Shown here one piece after another: positions 18,163 to 44,576 of a DNA stretch of 64,000 nucleotides. Numbering within the stretch: position 1 is the stretch's first letter; the number at the start of each line of letters is the position of its first letter. Position numbers and translations under genes: made by a program. The stretch is from the NCBI RefSeq assembly GCF_003576645.1, contig NC_044924.1, forward strand, positions 20,282,876 to 20,346,875, given 5' to 3'. Under the pieces are notes generated by a model that did not search any database, had not been told where the DNA came from, and saw only the letters and a program-made list of their open reading frames with translations. The DNA comes from Ipomoea triloba. Its lineage: Eukaryota > Streptophyta > Magnoliopsida > Solanales > Convolvulaceae.

Positions 18163-18555
18163 TGAAATAACTTCGTGGATCTTGAATGCAAGACTTTACG
18201 GGTTCAGGGATTATTTAACGTTTTTATAGTTATTAGTCCAGATTAGATAATACTAAAAGACAAACAAGAATAAAAACAAAAGTAAAGAAAAAGAACCCGG
18301 ACACAGGAAATGATCACGCAGTTCAGAGCTAAAACTCCTACGTCTGCGAGGCTACTCAGCTTTTGCCCAATCCACTAGATGCACCAAGGTTTACAATAGT
18401 TGGAATACAACCCAAACATACAATGGTTCAAAACCAACACACAACCTTCAACATTTACTCTTGAATTGACAAAACTGCAAGCCAAGAATTCTTCAATTCT
18501 TCATCTCGACTCAGTATCAACGACAGCTTCAAAGACAGTAGCAAAACGCCATTAA
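18163..18555 (-). repeat. Partial LTR fused to gag copy B
   Basis: Matches the primer-site-proximal part of the full LTR, with a small insertion (TAGTCCAGAT) near 18235. Confidence 0.8.
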
Positions 18556-19212
18556 TGACCAACCAGCGTTTTCCTGGATAGTGGTCACCTTCATTCGAAA
18601 ACGCGGTGGTAGAGAACGCAAGACTTTCTTGACCAATTTTTGTTGGGGAAAAGGCTCGCCTAGCACAGCAGCTCGATTTGCAAGTTCTTGAACATGTTCA
18701 TTGAAACTCACAATGTCCTCATTTTCGTTCATTCGTAATTCTTCAAAATCAGATTGAACCAGTTGTAACTTAGACTGTCTTACTGAGTTAGTGCCTTCAT
18801 AGGTAGTTTCCAGTATTTCCCACGCGACTTTTGCAGAGTCACAACCTGCAACTAAAGTGAATTGGCTTACATGCATTAGTGAATATATTATATCTAAAGC
18901 TTTATTATTATATCCAGCAAGGGTCCTTTCAGCTGCATCCCATTCAACTTCTGGTTTGAGCACTTTGGGATCATTTGTTGTTTCACCCGCTTTTGTGGGA
19001 TGTTCCTAACCAGTTAGGACGACTTTCCAGATAAGTTCACCATGTGCTTTAATATGCATCCTTGTACGTGCTTTCCAGTAAGCATAGTTGTCACCATTTA
19101 GTTCGGGAGGTGGTTTATTCATTCTGAAACACTCAACACATAGTGAGACAGAACAAAAAACAACAAGAACCGAAAATAAAACAACGAAAAGACAACAAAG
19201 AACTGAGTTCAA
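18529..19212 (-). pseudogene. Copia gag, copy B, identical to copy A
   Basis: Both halves translate identically to copy A, including the TAG (19006-19008) and the LTR fusion. The stop therefore predates the duplication, and the duplication is recent. Confidence 0.85.
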
Positions 19213-19273
19213 GAAACACGAGATCGCCAGATCGGTAGACTAATAGATTAAGTCCCTGTGCTCTGATACCAAT

Positions 19274-19655
19274 TGAAATAACTTCGTGGATCTTGAATGT
19301 AAGACTTTACGGGTTCAGGGATTAATTAACGTTTTTATAGTTATGATAATACTAAAAGAAAAACAAGAATAAAAACACAAGTAAAGAAAAAGAACCCGGA
19401 CACAGGAAATGATCACGCAGTTCAGAGCTAAAATTCCTACGTCTGCCGGGCTACTCAACTTTTGCCCAATCCACTAGATGCACCAAGGTTTATAATATTT
19501 GGAATACAACCCAAACATACAATGGTTCAAAACCAACACACAACCTTCAACATTTACTCTTGAATTGACAAAACTGCAAGCCAAGAATTCTTCAATTCTT
19601 CATCTCGACTCAGTATCAACGACAGCTTCAAAGACAGTAGCAAAACGCCATTAAT
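19274..19655 (-). repeat. Partial LTR fused to gag copy A
   Basis: Matches 20373 onward and ends at CCATTAAT, where it joins gag. Confidence 0.85.
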
Positions 19656-20311
19656 GACCAACCAGCGTTTTCCTGGATAGTGGTCACCTTCATTCGAAAA
19701 CGCGGTGGTAGAGAACGCAAGACTTTCTTGACCAATTTTTGTTGGGGAAAAGGCTCGCCTAGCACAGCAGCTCGATTTGCAAGTTCTTGAACATGTTCAT
19801 TGAAACTCACAATGTCCTCATTTTCGTTCATTCGTAATTCTTCAAAATCAGATTGAACCAGTTGTAACTTAGACTGTCTTACTGAGTTAGTGCCTTCATA
19901 GGTAGTTTCCAGTATTTCCCACGCGACTTTTGCAGAGTCACAACCTGCAACTAAAGTGAATTGGCTTACATGCATTAGTGAATATATTATATCTAAAGCT
20001 TTATTATTATATCCAGCAAGGGTCCTTTCAGCTGCATCCCATTCAACTTCTGGTTTGAGCACTTTGGGATCATTTGTTGTTTCACCCGCTTTTGTGGGAT
20101 GTTCCTAACCAGTTAGGACGACTTTCCAGATAAGTTCACCATGTGCTTTAATATGCATCCTTGTACGTGCTTTCCAGTAAGCATAGTTGTCACCATTTAG
20201 TTCGGGAGGTGGTTTATTCATTCTGAAACACTCAACACATAGTGAGACAGAACAAAAAACAACAAGAACCGAAAATAAAACAACGAAAAGACAACAAAGA
20301 ACTGAGTTCAA
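19628..20311 (-). pseudogene. Copia gag, copy A, with premature stop
   Basis: The N-terminal part contains NKPPPELNGDNYAYWKARTR, a DUF4219-type gag start. An in-frame TAG at 20105-20107 follows VVLTG, where TGG is normal. The frame continues EHPTKAGE to MLKPEVEWDAAE and a UBN2/retrotran_gag domain (SVRQSKLQLVQSDFEELRM, LVKKVLRSLPPRFRMKV). It then runs into partial LTR sequence, giving the tail AFCYCL. The zinc knuckle and everything beyond are missing. Confidence 0.8.
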
Positions 20312-20358
20312 GAAACACGAGATCGCCAGATCGGTAGACTAATAGATTAAGTCCCTGT

Positions 20359-20370
20359 GCTCTGATACCA
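20359..20370 (-). other. Primer binding site, initiator tRNA-Met
   Basis: Minus strand TGGTATCAGAGC, the standard plant Copia primer site. A second copy lies at 19260-19271. Confidence 0.9.
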
Positions 20371-20372
20371 AT

Positions 20373-21143
20373 TGAAATAACTTCGTGGATCTTGAATGTA
20401 AGACTTTACGGGTTCAGGGATTAATTAACGTTTTTATAGTTATGATAATACTAAAAGAAAAACAAGAATAAAAACACAAGTAAAGAAAAAGAACCCGGAC
20501 ACAGGAAATGATCACGCAGTTCAGAGCTAAAATTCCTACGTCTGCCGGGCTACTCAACTTTTGCCCAATCCACTAGATGCACCAAGGTTTATAATATTTG
20601 GAATACAACCCAAACATACAATGGTTCAAAACCAACACACAACCTTCAACATCTACTCTTGAATTGACAAAACTACAAGCCAAGAATTCTTCAATTCTTC
20701 ATCTCGACTCAGTATCAACGACAGCTTCAAAGACAGTAGCAAAACCCCATTAATTCTTCAAATAAATCTTCTTAAAATTCAAGTGTGAATCTCTGAACTT
20801 GTATCGTGTGTAGATGTGTCATTTAGAGCTTCAAATGCCTTCCTATTTATAGCATAGGATCCTTCAACAAACTTCACAATTATAGATCTGAAAAATCAGC
20901 TTGATTTAATGAGAGCCACATTCCTTAAAAAACTGTTAGCCACACAAATTAAATGGGTGGACTAATTCCTTGTTGAGAGCTTGCTGTCTGAGACAGCGTC
21001 TGCTGGCACAACTTCACTATCGGCACTGGTGGACAAGCTGACTAACGGTCCAAAAACTAATAAAAACTAGATATAGGCTAAGTGTATTTTTGACAAATAA
21101 TATAGCCAATAACAAAGGACCGTGTATCATTTGTACACTTACA
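20373..21143 (-). repeat. Complete LTR of the Copia gag element
   Basis: 771 bp, starting TGTAAGTGTAC and ending GTTATTTCA on the minus strand, two bases before the primer site. The two other LTR copies stop at GCCATTAAT, where they join gag. Confidence 0.7.
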
Positions 21144-34766: not shown

Positions 34767-34882
34767 AAATCCACCCTTCTTATATTTTTACATGAAAATA
34801 AATATCAAACATAATGAAAACTTCAGTGTACAGGATCCACTATTGGCAAATCCACCCTTCTTATATTTTTACATGAAAATAA
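34767..34882. repeat. 34-bp direct repeat, two copies
   Basis: CCACCCTTCTTATATTTTTA plus CATGAAAATAA occurs near 34770-34801 and 34851-34882; the second copy contains the target site of the next element. Confidence 0.85.
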
Positions 34883-35720
34883 GAGTTAATACCACAAATG
34901 GTCCTCTGACTATTGAGCTAGTACTCCTTTTAGTCATCGACTTTCAATTCGACCACAAATGGTCCTCTGACTTTAATTTTTGACCACAAATAGTCCTCCA
35001 TTAAAAATTCTGTTAAATAGGTGTTAAATCTAAGGGTATCATCGTCAAATCGATATATATAATCGTCATAAAATAAAAATGTTTACAATTTTTCACCAAC
35101 AAACATAATTGAAAAAATTAACAAATATAAATACTTCTAAATAAAAAGACAATACACGTTATTCTTGTAATTATGCGTACAAAATGAAAATTTAATATTA
35201 GAGCTATCTGTTTTTAATTTAACCAATAGATTAAAATGGAAGATTTTTTTTTAAACCATGTTTCCATAATTTTCATGGTTGTTCATACATGGATGATTAA
35301 TAATTTTCACTTTTCATTAATCGATCAAACATTTTGTTTGGGACATAACTGAAGGTCGCCACCGTTGAATTAATATAATTAATCAAGTACAAATTGCAAA
35401 TATTAATCATGGAATTTTTTTTAATTTGTTCATTTATGTGATTTGTCACATCCATTTTGTTATTATATTTATTAACTTAATGTTTATTAATGTTTGAAAT
35501 TAATTATGGTGTCATATAATTCTAAAAAAGTAGTCATAATAATATTAATCAATTTGACGATATTACCCCTAAATTTAACACCTATTTAACAGAAATCTTA
35601 ACGGAAGACTATTTGTTGTCAAAAATAAAAGTCAGAAGACCATTTGTGGTCGAATTGAAAGTCGATGACTGAAAGGAGTACTAACCTAAATAGTCAGAGG
35701 ACTATTTGTGGTATTAACTC
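34883..35720. mobile_element. MULE-like element with about 170-bp inverted ends
   Basis: Ends GAGTTAATACCACAAATGGT and the inverse of CTATTTGTGGTATTAACTC. Perfect 9-bp target duplication TGAAAATAA at 34874-34882 and 35721-35729. The AT-rich interior has no ORF. The termini resemble those of 42920-44567 in style (TGGTCCTC motifs), but it carries no captured gene. Confidence 0.9.
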
Positions 35721-35729
35721 TGAAAATAA

Positions 35730-41140: not shown

Positions 41141-42109
41141 GGGAAAAGTGTCAAATTGGCCCCCTAAGTAGGGTGGATAGTGCAATTAGGTCCCCTAAGT
41201 GAAAAAAGGTCCATTTAAGTTTCCTAAACCGGTAAAATAGTTCAATTAAGTCCAAATTGACTTGTTTATCAAGTCAAATTCGTGAGGTGTTGACACATGT
41301 CCTTTTTTAATTTTATTTTTCAAAACAAATATTTTTATTTATTAAAAATCTTATTTATTATAAATAATAAATAAATAAATAATTTAAAAAAAAAAAAAAA
41401 GTAGCGTCGCCATGGAAGAGAACAGAAAGCAGTTTCCCATCTTCTTCTTCTTTGTCTCGCATTCTCGTCGCACGTCCGCCGGAGGGAGAGACGGAGCTAC
41501 ACCCTGCCATCGTCGCCGCTTCCAGTCCGACGCCGGCGACGTGAACACCTCTCCCTCATCCGCAAACACCGCTGTAGCCACCACCACAACTGTCCCCCTC
41601 CCTCGCCGGCGAACTGAGATGCGGCAAGCGTCAACGGCGGAGCTTGAGCGATGCTCGATCTGGTTCATCTCTGGCGGCAAGGTCGACGGAGCAGCAGGCG
41701 GCGAGAACTAGTTCCTCCTCCGGCGTCGGACTGGCAGCGGCGGCGATGGCAGGGTGCAGCTCCGTCTCTCCTTCCGGCGGACGTGCAGCGAGAATGCGAG
41801 ATGAAGAAGAAGAAGATGGGAAACTGCTTTCTGTTCTCTTCCATGGCCGACGCTATTTTTTTAAAAAATTATTTATTTATTTATTATTTATAATAAATAA
41901 GATTTTTAATAAATAAAAATATTTGTTTTGAAAAATAAAATTAAAAAAGACACGTGCCAACACCTCATGAATTTGACCTGATAAACAAGTCAATTTGGAC
42001 TTCAATGAACTATTTTACCGGTTTAGGGGGCTTGAATGGGGCTTTTTTCACTTGGAGGACCTAATTGCACTATCCACCTGATTTAGGGGGCTAATTTGAC
42101 ACTTTTCCC
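41141..42109. mobile_element. Palindromic MULE-like element with GC-rich cargo
   Basis: Both arms are long inverses: GGGAAAAGTGTCAAATTGGC at the left and its partner TAATTTGACACTTTTCCC at the right. A perfect 10-bp target duplication AATTAGATTA lies at 41131-41140 and 42110-42119. The arms continue inward through AT-rich sequence into a GC-rich segment (41410-41560) that recurs inverted at 41705-41850 (GTCCGCCGGAGGGAG, CTTCCAGTCCGACGCCGGC). The GC contrast suggests captured host DNA in head-to-head form. The open frames (for example 41412-41711, MEENRKQFPIFFFFVS) show no known domain. Confidence 0.85.
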
Positions 42110-42910: not shown

Positions 42911-43095
42911 CAAAATGTAGAGTAAATATCCAAAATGGTCCCTCGACTATAGCATAATTCACAAATTGGTCCTCGACTTATGATTTTAACCAATAACATC
43001 CTTAACTTTTGATTTTTGACCCAATTCAGTCCTCCGTTAGTATGCCCGTTTGTTGACCGTGAGATCCGAGGACAGAGTAGTAATTTCACTCCTTT

Positions 43096-44085
43096 ATGTT
43101 TTTGGCGACGAACCGGTTCATATGCGAAATCTGCAACAAGGGTTTCCAGAGGGACCTTCGGCTGCTCAAGACAATCACCGCCCATGAATCTGTTAGGACC
43201 TCAATTGTGAGTGTTGGGAGCATCCCTCAATTGGTGGATGCATTGCCCAATCTAAACGCAGAATGCCTGGAATCAGCACTTGTGATTCTCGACGTTTTGT
43301 CCACCCTCCCCGAGGGCTCATTGGCCTTGAAGGATTGCCCTAGGACAATCTCAAACATGGTGAAACTGCTGATGAAAGTTTCCGAGAAGTGCACTCAGCT
43401 AGCTTTGTCGGTTTTGTGGGCCGTCTGCAAGCTCACCCCTGAAAGATGTGCCTCCGTTGCTGTTGAGGCCGGGCTAGCTGCACAGCTCCTCCTCGTAATT
43501 CAGAGTGGCTGCAATCCTGCATTGAAACAGCGGTCTGCAGAGCTCTTAAAGCTCTGCAGTCTAAATTACACCGCTACCATTTTCATTTCAAAGTGTAAAC
43601 TCACTCACAAAAACAATACAATGATTGTTACAAAAACTCCCCCTTTCCAGAACGTGCAGCTTCATAGGAGAGGGCACAACCTGCCATGGAAGCTGAAGCA
43701 AAGGAACAACAAGGAGGTGATCAAGAAGAAGGTGTATATATGCCCGGAGAAGAGCTGCGTTCACCATGACCCGTCTCGAGCTCTCGGGGAACTCACTGGG
43801 ATCAAGAAACACTTCAGCAGAAAGCATGGGGAGAAGAAATGGAAGTGTGATAAGTGCTCCAAGAAGTATGCTGTCCAGTCTGATAGGAAAGACAGCTTTA
43901 TTACACATAGGGCGTTTTGTGATGCATTAGCGGAGGAGAGTGCGAGGTTTACTACTTCTGTTCCGAATCTCAACTTCCGTAACGAATTGCTGTCCGACGG
44001 GAATCCCGGATTCGGATCTCACGTTTTCCGGCCGCCGCAGAACGAGCTGATGGTGGGTGTGGACGCGGCGGGGAATCATCATTAG
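43096..44085 (+). CDS. Chimeric IDD-PUB-IDD ORF inside the Pack-MULE
   Basis: A continuous 329-codon frame. Residues 1-20 (FLATNRFICEICNKGFQRD) are the start of the first C2H2 finger of INDETERMINATE-domain transcription factors. Codons 21-184 (43156-43647) are the C-terminal ARM-repeat part of a PUB25/26-like U-box E3 ligase (LLKTITAHESVRTSIV, SAELLKLCSLNYTATIFISK). From 43648 the IDD finger resumes at its next residue (QNVQLHRRGHNLPWKLKQ). VYICPEKSCVHHDPSRALGE and CDKCSKKYAVQSD follow. The second pair of fingers is damaged: QSDRKDSFITHRAF lacks about 22 residues normally between D and R. The U-box itself is absent. Whether it is expressed is unknown. Confidence 0.8.
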   Translation: MFLATNRFICEICNKGFQRDLRLLKTITAHESVRTSIVSVGSIPQLVDALPNLNAECLESALVILDVLSTLPEGSLALKDCPRTISNMVKLLMKVSEKCTQLALSVLWAVCKLTPERCASVAVEAGLAAQLLLVIQSGCNPALKQRSAELLKLCSLNYTATIFISKCKLTHKNNTMIVTKTPPFQNVQLHRRGHNLPWKLKQRNNKEVIKKKVYICPEKSCVHHDPSRALGELTGIKKHFSRKHGEKKWKCDKCSKKYAVQSDRKDSFITHRAFCDALAEESARFTTSVPNLNFRNELLSDGNPGFGSHVFRPPQNELMVGVDAAGNHH

Positions 44086-44368
44086 TTCGGTCTCGATGGG
44101 TAGAAGCCACGGCTGCTGCTTTGGCTGGACGCCAATAACGCCAACGAGTTCGCCGGCGGCGGCGGCTTAGCTCACGAGCTCCTACAAATGGCGGCGCCGC
44201 TGGCTAATATGCTGGGTTTGTCTTCGCAGAACCACTGGTTTCACGGCAGCGGCAGCGCATCTTCGTCGTCGCTACCGCCGATGATGAAGGAGGGGACGAC
44301 GGGAAGATAAGCTCCATGTTCTACGAAGCGGCGGTGGCGGGAACCGTGCCACCCTCCTATAATTAGCG
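44086..44368 (+). pseudogene. IDD C-terminal tail beyond the stop
   Basis: The frame continues after TAG 44083 as FGLDG, a second TAG, then KPRLLLWLDANNANEFAGGG and NMLGLSSQNHWFHGSGSASS. This looks like the Gln/Asn/Ser-rich tail of IDD proteins. Both stops fit CAG-to-TAG changes. It shows the captured IDD sequence ran further than the present ORF. Confidence 0.65.
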
Positions 44369-44576
44369 AACAGGTGAAGTCCAATGGCGGGAAGCTTGTG
44401 AAATTACTACTCTGTCCTCAGATCTCACAGTCAACAAATGGGCATACTAACGGAGGACCAAATTGGGTCAAAAATCGAAAGTTAAGGATGTTATTGGTTA
44501 AAATCATAAGTCGAGGACCAATTTGTGAATTATGCTATAGTCGAGGGACCATTTTGGGTATTTACTCCAAAATGTA

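Follow-up and report, generated by a model that had tools for sequence, protein, structure and literature searches.

The target site duplications of Mutator-like elements (MULEs) are 8 to 11 bp long, typically 9 bp, and Pack-MULEs, the kind whose interior derives from host genes, were reportedly described in rice by Jiang in 2004. Chimeric Pack-MULEs are already well known; according to the available part of one report on Oryza, 5 to 10% of the putative genes that derive from MULEs have at least two parents (PMC4858842). In animal Pack-TIRs, capture by gap filling and template switching has been shown, with a median microhomology of 2 bp in the excerpt of that source (PMC8277862). In the maize retroelement Bs1, three transduced gene pieces form a chimeric gene that its report, as excerpted, describes as transcribed and translated (PMC13317346). 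Here we describe a 1,648-bp element on contig C9 of Ipomoea triloba, a wild relative of sweet potato (positions 42920-44567 of the window, the 64,000-nucleotide stretch of DNA analyzed). It is an ordinary Pack-MULE of the multi-locus type, and its history can be read unusually well. A search of a collection of open-access papers for reports joining Pack-MULE with indeterminate domain, U-box or Ipomoea (the last judged by titles and opening lines of abstracts) found no earlier description of it.

The element is flanked by a perfect 9-bp target site duplication, identical copies of CAAAATGTA, and ends in 170-bp terminal inverted repeats, as the first-pass annotation of this DNA had reported (Table 1); the two repeats match at 163 of 170 positions. 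The duplication and the long inverted repeats are features of a MULE, and a host-gene-derived interior (donors on C7 and C6), no transposase and related copies elsewhere (C4 and C14) are those of a Pack-MULE. No transposase was found in the element: only IDD and PUB domains passed the Pfam cut-offs in the 329-codon open reading frame (ORF), the ORF covered by the profile scan, and the other listed ORFs of at least 50 amino acids are all 117 amino acids or shorter. The captured host-gene fragments have a GC content of 0.49 to 0.55, versus 0.31 in the flanks. Positions from about 44357 to 44397 were assigned to the element itself because they are common to a sibling element.

In the available portions of two reports (PMC4858842, PMC8903248), Pack-MULEs of rice and other plants likewise have long terminal inverted repeats, a 9-bp duplication and no transposase found, and they share with this element unlinked host fragments that are GC-richer than the flanks, several copies and a decay consistent with neutrality. 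Unlike the elements described in those portions, this one holds one captured fragment within another, coexists with both donors and an IDD-only relative, and gained its fused frame after capture. The order of capture is readable because the nested fragments, the IDD-only relative and both donors remain. We regard it as very probable that this is a non-autonomous MULE of the Pack-MULE kind that took up an IDD9-like piece and later a PUB30-like piece, that its fused frame arose after capture, and that the captured sequence is most likely drifting, with no function as a protein.

Table 1. Coordinates of the element and its parts in the window
Feature	Position	Strand	Remarks
Left 9-bp target site duplication, CAAAATGTA	42911-42919	n/a	
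Left terminal inverted repeat, 170 bp	42920-43089	+	7 mismatches versus right arm
Element's own subterminal sequence, including the ATG of the ORF (43096)	43090-43102	+	Also in siblings without the IDD piece
329-codon ORF	43096-44085	+	
IDD fragment, first part, TGGCGACG (donor ATGGCGACG), to GFQRD; finger 1 cut after CxxC	43103-43156	+	96% to C7 donor
PUB30-like fragment with C-terminal ARM repeats, the gene's own TGA stop (43622-43624, not in the frame of the ORF) and 3' UTR	43155-43651	+	97% to C6 donor
4-bp tandem duplication ACTC	43599-43606	+	Absent from C6 donor and C4 copy; shifts frame past PUB stop
IDD fragment, second part: remainder of finger 1, complete finger 2 and the first half of finger 3	43647-43884	+	97% to C7 donor; Pfam
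Internal deletion join: 192 bp of donor gone; AT microhomology; AG of intron 3' end kept	43883-43886	+	
IDD fragment, third part, with the second half of finger 4 plus some C-terminal region	43885-44341	+	94% to C7 donor
Nonsense codon TAG	44083-44085	+	Not in C4 or C14 copies
Nonsense codon TAG	44101-44103	+	Common to C4 copy
Right subterminal sequence	44342-44397	+	From about 44357, 79% to sibling L039
Right terminal inverted repeat, 170 bp	44398-44567	-	
Right 9-bp target site duplication, CAAAATGTA	44568-44576	n/a	

Other repeats occupy the same window. A MULE-like element of 838 bp (34883-35720) has a terminus about 71% like that of the Pack-MULE over 120 bp and a 9-bp duplication, TGAAAATAA, identified by eye (34874-34882 and 35721-35729). 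A near-complete foldback element (41141-42109), 810 bp upstream of the Pack-MULE, has arms of about 413 bp at 90% identity and carries AATTAGATTA on both sides. At 18163-20743, three repeated units are spaced by about 1,100 bp and are about 97% identical, and two identical 158-codon ORFs in this region look by eye like part of a retrotransposon gag.

The parental genes, for which a genome search had been proposed, were both found in I. triloba (462 Mb in 17 contigs): an IDD9-like gene at C7:14960874-14961819 and a PUB30-like gene at C6:24572473-24572965. When the element itself was used as the genome query, 118 matches were obtained and 40 of 679 first-look candidates were scored, so that the copy counts given here are lower bounds. 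Within the 329-codon ORF, Pfam placed an ARM_PUB domain (1.2e-46) over residues 15-171 and IDD fingers over residues 210-290. A plant U-box ARM piece does lie in the IDD finger where the first-pass annotation had placed a PUB25/26-like fragment, but its parent is PUB30-like, with 97% identity to I. triloba protein P0003, and PUB25/26 was rejected as the parent. The claim that one MULE lineage captured two unrelated genes was borne out, as a single genome holds the two donors together with a relative that carries only the IDD piece and another copy of the chimera. Viral contigs scanned with the IDD and PUB proteins yielded no relatives.

The PUB fragment overlaps the flanking IDD parts by CC on the left (43155-43156) and by CCAGA on the right (43647-43651), and no IDD bases were lost at its insertion. 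The junctions had been given as 43155/43156 and 43647/43648; these positions are correct, although each can be shifted, by 2 and 5 bp respectively, since both parents have CC and CCAGA there. Assembly error, which would have undone the case for capture, has a negligible chance of explaining these junctions, since the second chimera (L009, C4:1814649-1816213) repeats both of them with substitutions of its own, and a gene model of I. batatas (P0188) also joins PUB and IDD sequence. The left end of the C4 copy falls in an assembly gap. At the other end of the captured sequence, similarity to the IDD donor extends beyond the ORF stop to about 44341 (element position 1422), across two nonsense codons (44083 and 44101) and a 1-nt deletion (about 44293).

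A further internal join, unseen in the first-pass annotation, lies at 43884/43885. Here 192 bp of the IDD donor are gone, a stretch over the exon 2/intron boundary with 68 nt on the exon side and 124 nt on the intron side; an intron is stated to split finger 4 in all maize, rice and Arabidopsis IDD genes except ZmIDD3 and ZmIDD4 in the available text of PMC1586020. The exon side of the join ends in GAT, and the other side consists of the last AG of the intron followed by exon 3 (donor GGATTATAG/GAAAGAC), with AT common to both. The join is present in all three I. triloba copies and, at the protein level, in I. trifida P0122 and I. batatas P0130. Capture of a spliced, exon-skipped IDD mRNA was attractive from protein comparison, as the join falls at the start of exon 3 and an annotated I. 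nil isoform X2 (P0001) has the same QSD-RKDSF join at the protein level. It is nevertheless highly improbable, and was rejected on the intron end of the donor: the element retains the AG, and possibly the AT, of the intron 3' end (GGATTATAG followed by GAAAGAC), and there is no GT donor where the exon breaks off. Thus, the retained intron bases, found in the comparison of intron content with the parents that had been suggested earlier, show that genomic DNA rather than spliced RNA was captured. P0001 itself is IDD9-like and full-length apart from a gap of 22 residues, as in the elements; the I. triloba join keeps intron bases and lacks a splice donor.

Copies with and without the PUB insert, also named as worth seeking, both exist: the C4 copy has the insert and a copy on C14 (L010, C14:6644173-6645306) lacks it. 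In the C14 copy the PUB site is unfilled, with element positions 1-237 and 728-1628 adjoining, and 8 of 9 A-rich bases of its flanks match by eye. This copy corresponds to the annotated protein P0005, both starting with MFLATNRF and ending with GTVPPSYN; the frame of the GTVPPSYN end is lost in the window copy through a 1-nt deletion. In the C14 copy, the right inverted repeat is interrupted by a further insertion of about 750 bp (L010 2135-2887), which includes a long run of AT and is GC-rich at one end. Because an IDD-only relative with an unfilled PUB site is present on C14, the IDD piece was placed as the first capture. Consistent with this order, the IDD pieces have diverged further from their donor at synonymous sites (0.095 for C9, 0.094 for C4 and 0.080 for C14) than the PUB pieces have from theirs (0.045 for C9 and 0.064 for C4). 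The two captures were thus sequential, IDD and then PUB.

The chimera is present in I. triloba at least twice, on C9 and C4. The I. batatas gene model, available at the protein level, suggests a third chimera as a likely relative. It has LLSDGNP, RLLLW and MMKE in common with the C9 and C4 copies and lacks their A-to-V change, a pattern that suggests that P0188 branched off before these two separated. The C9 and C4 copies differ at 30 of 1557 aligned sites, which corresponds to about 1.4 million years at an assumed rate of 7e-9 substitutions per site per year.

The genome was also searched with the terminal inverted repeat, with at least 40 matches and 40 of 407 candidates scored. Thirteen sibling elements were compared, of which one (L025) was left out with its right end in a gap. 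The remaining 12 comprised 10 with perfect 9-bp duplications, one with 8 of 9 bases matching and one that failed. Six of seven further loci were two-armed, and four of these had perfect 9-bp duplications. Overall, 4 of 18 siblings were without a perfect duplication, and several of the perfect ones are A/T-rich, which we count against our best explanation. When sibling ORFs were scanned by profile, three of four carried gene pieces (PTR2, DUF688 and DUF1645), and one sibling group (L013) joins pieces from C2 and C14, a two-locus capture. The elements L014, L016 and L021 are sibling Pack-MULEs with frames of 288, 249 and 261 codons from DUF688, PTR2/NPF and DUF1645 genes, respectively.

The 329-codon frame had been described as kept through the insertion. 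The codons are indeed open, but capture itself did not preserve the frame: the native PUB stop is present and was escaped by a later 4-bp duplication. The donor PUB frame ends in KLTKTIQ-stop, and unaltered, reading from the ATG of the element would end at 43622-43624, 23 bases before IDD sequence resumes. ACTC occurs twice in the window copy and once in the donor and the C4 copy, and it is only because of this duplication that the window frame runs on into the IDD part. The C4 copy has a 7-bp duplication instead and reaches a stop after codon 150, and in the C14 copy finger 3 is interrupted by a TAG in frame. Thus the disabling changes differ among the three I. triloba copies, and only the window copy has an open fusion among those whose DNA was read. 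Both chimeras carry tandem microduplications in their PUB tails (4 bp in C9 and 7 bp in C4), each with a net +1 shift; this can only be called a coincidence, and we count it against our best explanation. Stop-to-stop frames on either strand in seven of 12 siblings scanned, without this fusion, are 288, 261, 249, 221, 190, 190 and 157 codons long, versus 333 here, and a long frame in captured exons is therefore no surprise. The alignments point to the 329-codon frame being a late accident in a decaying copy, arisen after capture by a 4-bp slip.

A regulatory protein joining ARM repeats to an IDD region had been proposed as a possible product. The fusion could in principle be a new functional protein in which an ARM fragment is tethered to IDD residues, for example a dominant-negative partner of PUB30 substrates or of IDD partners, yet we consider this very unlikely. 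In its favor, the 329 codons are open, raw Ka/Ks to the donors is below 1, and the predicted structure of the ORF (mean pLDDT 63.9) has blocks at 89-96 over residues 21-150, the ARM part. Against it, the frame is open only through the 4-bp duplication and is closed in the C4 copy. The U-box domain, present in P0003, was not captured and is absent from the chimera by Pfam. The CxxC and HxxxH of finger 1 are parted by the PUB insert; finger 3 lacks its second half and finger 4 its first half, each without some ligands, and the two are joined by the 192-bp genomic deletion. By Pfam only finger 2 of the four is whole, whereas DNA binding requires both finger 2 and finger 3 according to the excerpt of PMC10298287. 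An IDD transcription factor has four intact fingers of the ID domain and a nuclear localization signal; the sequence captured here begins only with the SLMATNRF region, which lies downstream of the KRKRNLPG of full-length relatives, and it includes neither the nuclear localization signal nor the C-terminal motifs of those relatives. All 10-residue blocks after residue 160 average below 70 in the structure prediction, which was made without zinc from a 16-row alignment of PUB relatives only, without IDD rows.

The protein search was consistent with these findings. A total of 7979 candidates sharing the most words were scored, among proteins of about 181-575 residues in a database that includes those of I. 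triloba. Among the best 120 of 5365 matches, the closest were Ipomoea IDD9-like and PUB30-like proteins, and none had both parts; P0115, which aligns over 71% of the query with 56% identity, has only U-box and ARM domains. With finger 1 cut, ligands missing from fingers 3 and 4, the nuclear localization signal and C-terminal motifs not captured, the other copies disabled and branches that look neutral, the proposed regulatory protein is poorly supported. There is only a slight chance that a frame-restoring microduplication after nested capture gave rise to a young ARM-IDD fusion that is translated and disturbs the function of PUB30-like or IDD9-like proteins. If so, a de novo fusion gene would have been caught at birth, while the genome still contains its donors, an element with one capture and a chimera that is out of frame.

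A comparison of dN/dS, another check proposed earlier, gave raw values below 1, but the counts on individual branches fit neutrality. Raw Ka/Ks versus the donors was 0.26 (IDD) and 0.32 (PUB) for C9, 0.30 and 0.18 for C4, and 0.29 for C14; taken alone, these values look like constraint, and we count them against the neutral reading. Post-capture substitutions were then polarized by the other copies. The C9 branch had 5 nonsynonymous changes (1 stop) and 4 synonymous, the C4 branch 5 and 6, the C14 branch 7 and 2, and the ancestor of C9 and C4, for the IDD part only, 7 (1 stop) and 1. In total, 24 of 37 changes were nonsynonymous (2 stops) and 13 synonymous. This count leaves out 15 changes found in all three copies, the PUB part of the C9 and C4 ancestor (2 nonsynonymous, 3 synonymous and 2 UTR), one change common to C14 and C4, and one two-state site. 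With a uniform expectation of 0.772 nonsynonymous, p was 0.079, which is not significant, and omega about 0.54, which we likewise count against the neutral reading; with transition weights giving expectations of 0.713 and 0.687, p was 0.37 and 0.60. The branch substitutions are thus consistent with neutrality, which they do not reject.

The 15 differences from the donors common to all three copies are 10 synonymous and 5 nonsynonymous, and may lie largely on the branch of the constrained donor. C>T or G>A changes make up 19 of 29 copy-specific versus 3 of 15 all-copy changes (Fisher p 0.0097, with the C9 and C4 class, 7 of 15, left out), an excess that would be expected if silenced copies were methylated. 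The captured IDD region of the window copy carries two nonsense changes and one frameshift.

The element might alternatively act as a source of small interfering RNAs working in trans on IDD9-like and PUB30-like genes, a reading that we hold to be unlikely. The long inverted arms would suit such a source, as would 243 perfect 24-mers in common with the PUB donor and 302 with the IDD donor (exact runs of 149 and 110 bp, respectively), and a role of this kind has been proposed for gene fragments in transposable elements in the excerpted text of PMC2773423 and PMC8277862. On the other side, the PUB donor retains a 458-codon open frame and the matching exons of the IDD donor read open, although this tells us only that both donors persist.

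Under the history that we favor, capture without a protein function, an element of this inverted-repeat family gained about 0.95 kb of genomic DNA of the IDD9-like gene on C7, and none of the three I. triloba copies has the 192 bp over the exon 2/intron boundary. A piece of the PUB30-like gene on C6, about 490 bp long and reaching beyond its stop codon, was later placed inside the IDD part at the 2-bp and 5-bp microhomologies. To judge from the junctions, both gains probably occurred by break repair within the element, with template switching guided by microhomology as in the gap-filling model, and transposase supplied from elsewhere would presumably move the elements. A 4-bp slip after capture then opened the 329-codon frame. 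Most likely the captured sequence is drifting and has no function as a protein; were it active, small RNAs to both donors would be the likeliest route.

As in the gap-filling capture described in the available part of PMC8277862, fillers from other loci are joined here at short microhomologies, of 2, 5 and perhaps 12 bp. The last of these is TGGCGACGAACC, the first 12 bp of the IDD piece (from 43103), which the IDD donor also carries and which occurs in 8 of 12 IDD-free siblings (4 exact and 4 with one mismatch), followed there by differing sequence; the IDD-free siblings could instead descend from an IDD-bearing element. Unlike the animal Pack-TIRs of that source, the present case concerns one plant MULE family and is read from junctions alone. 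The element also resembles Bs1, as excerpted in PMC13317346, in that multi-locus gene pieces give one ORF only after later mutations; in contrast to that transcribed and translated retroelement, it is a DNA transposon known from sequence alone.

With both donors, a one-capture relative, two chimeras and base-level joins in one genome, nested filling at microhomologies is directly readable in this family, and an open frame over captured exons need not mean in-frame capture.
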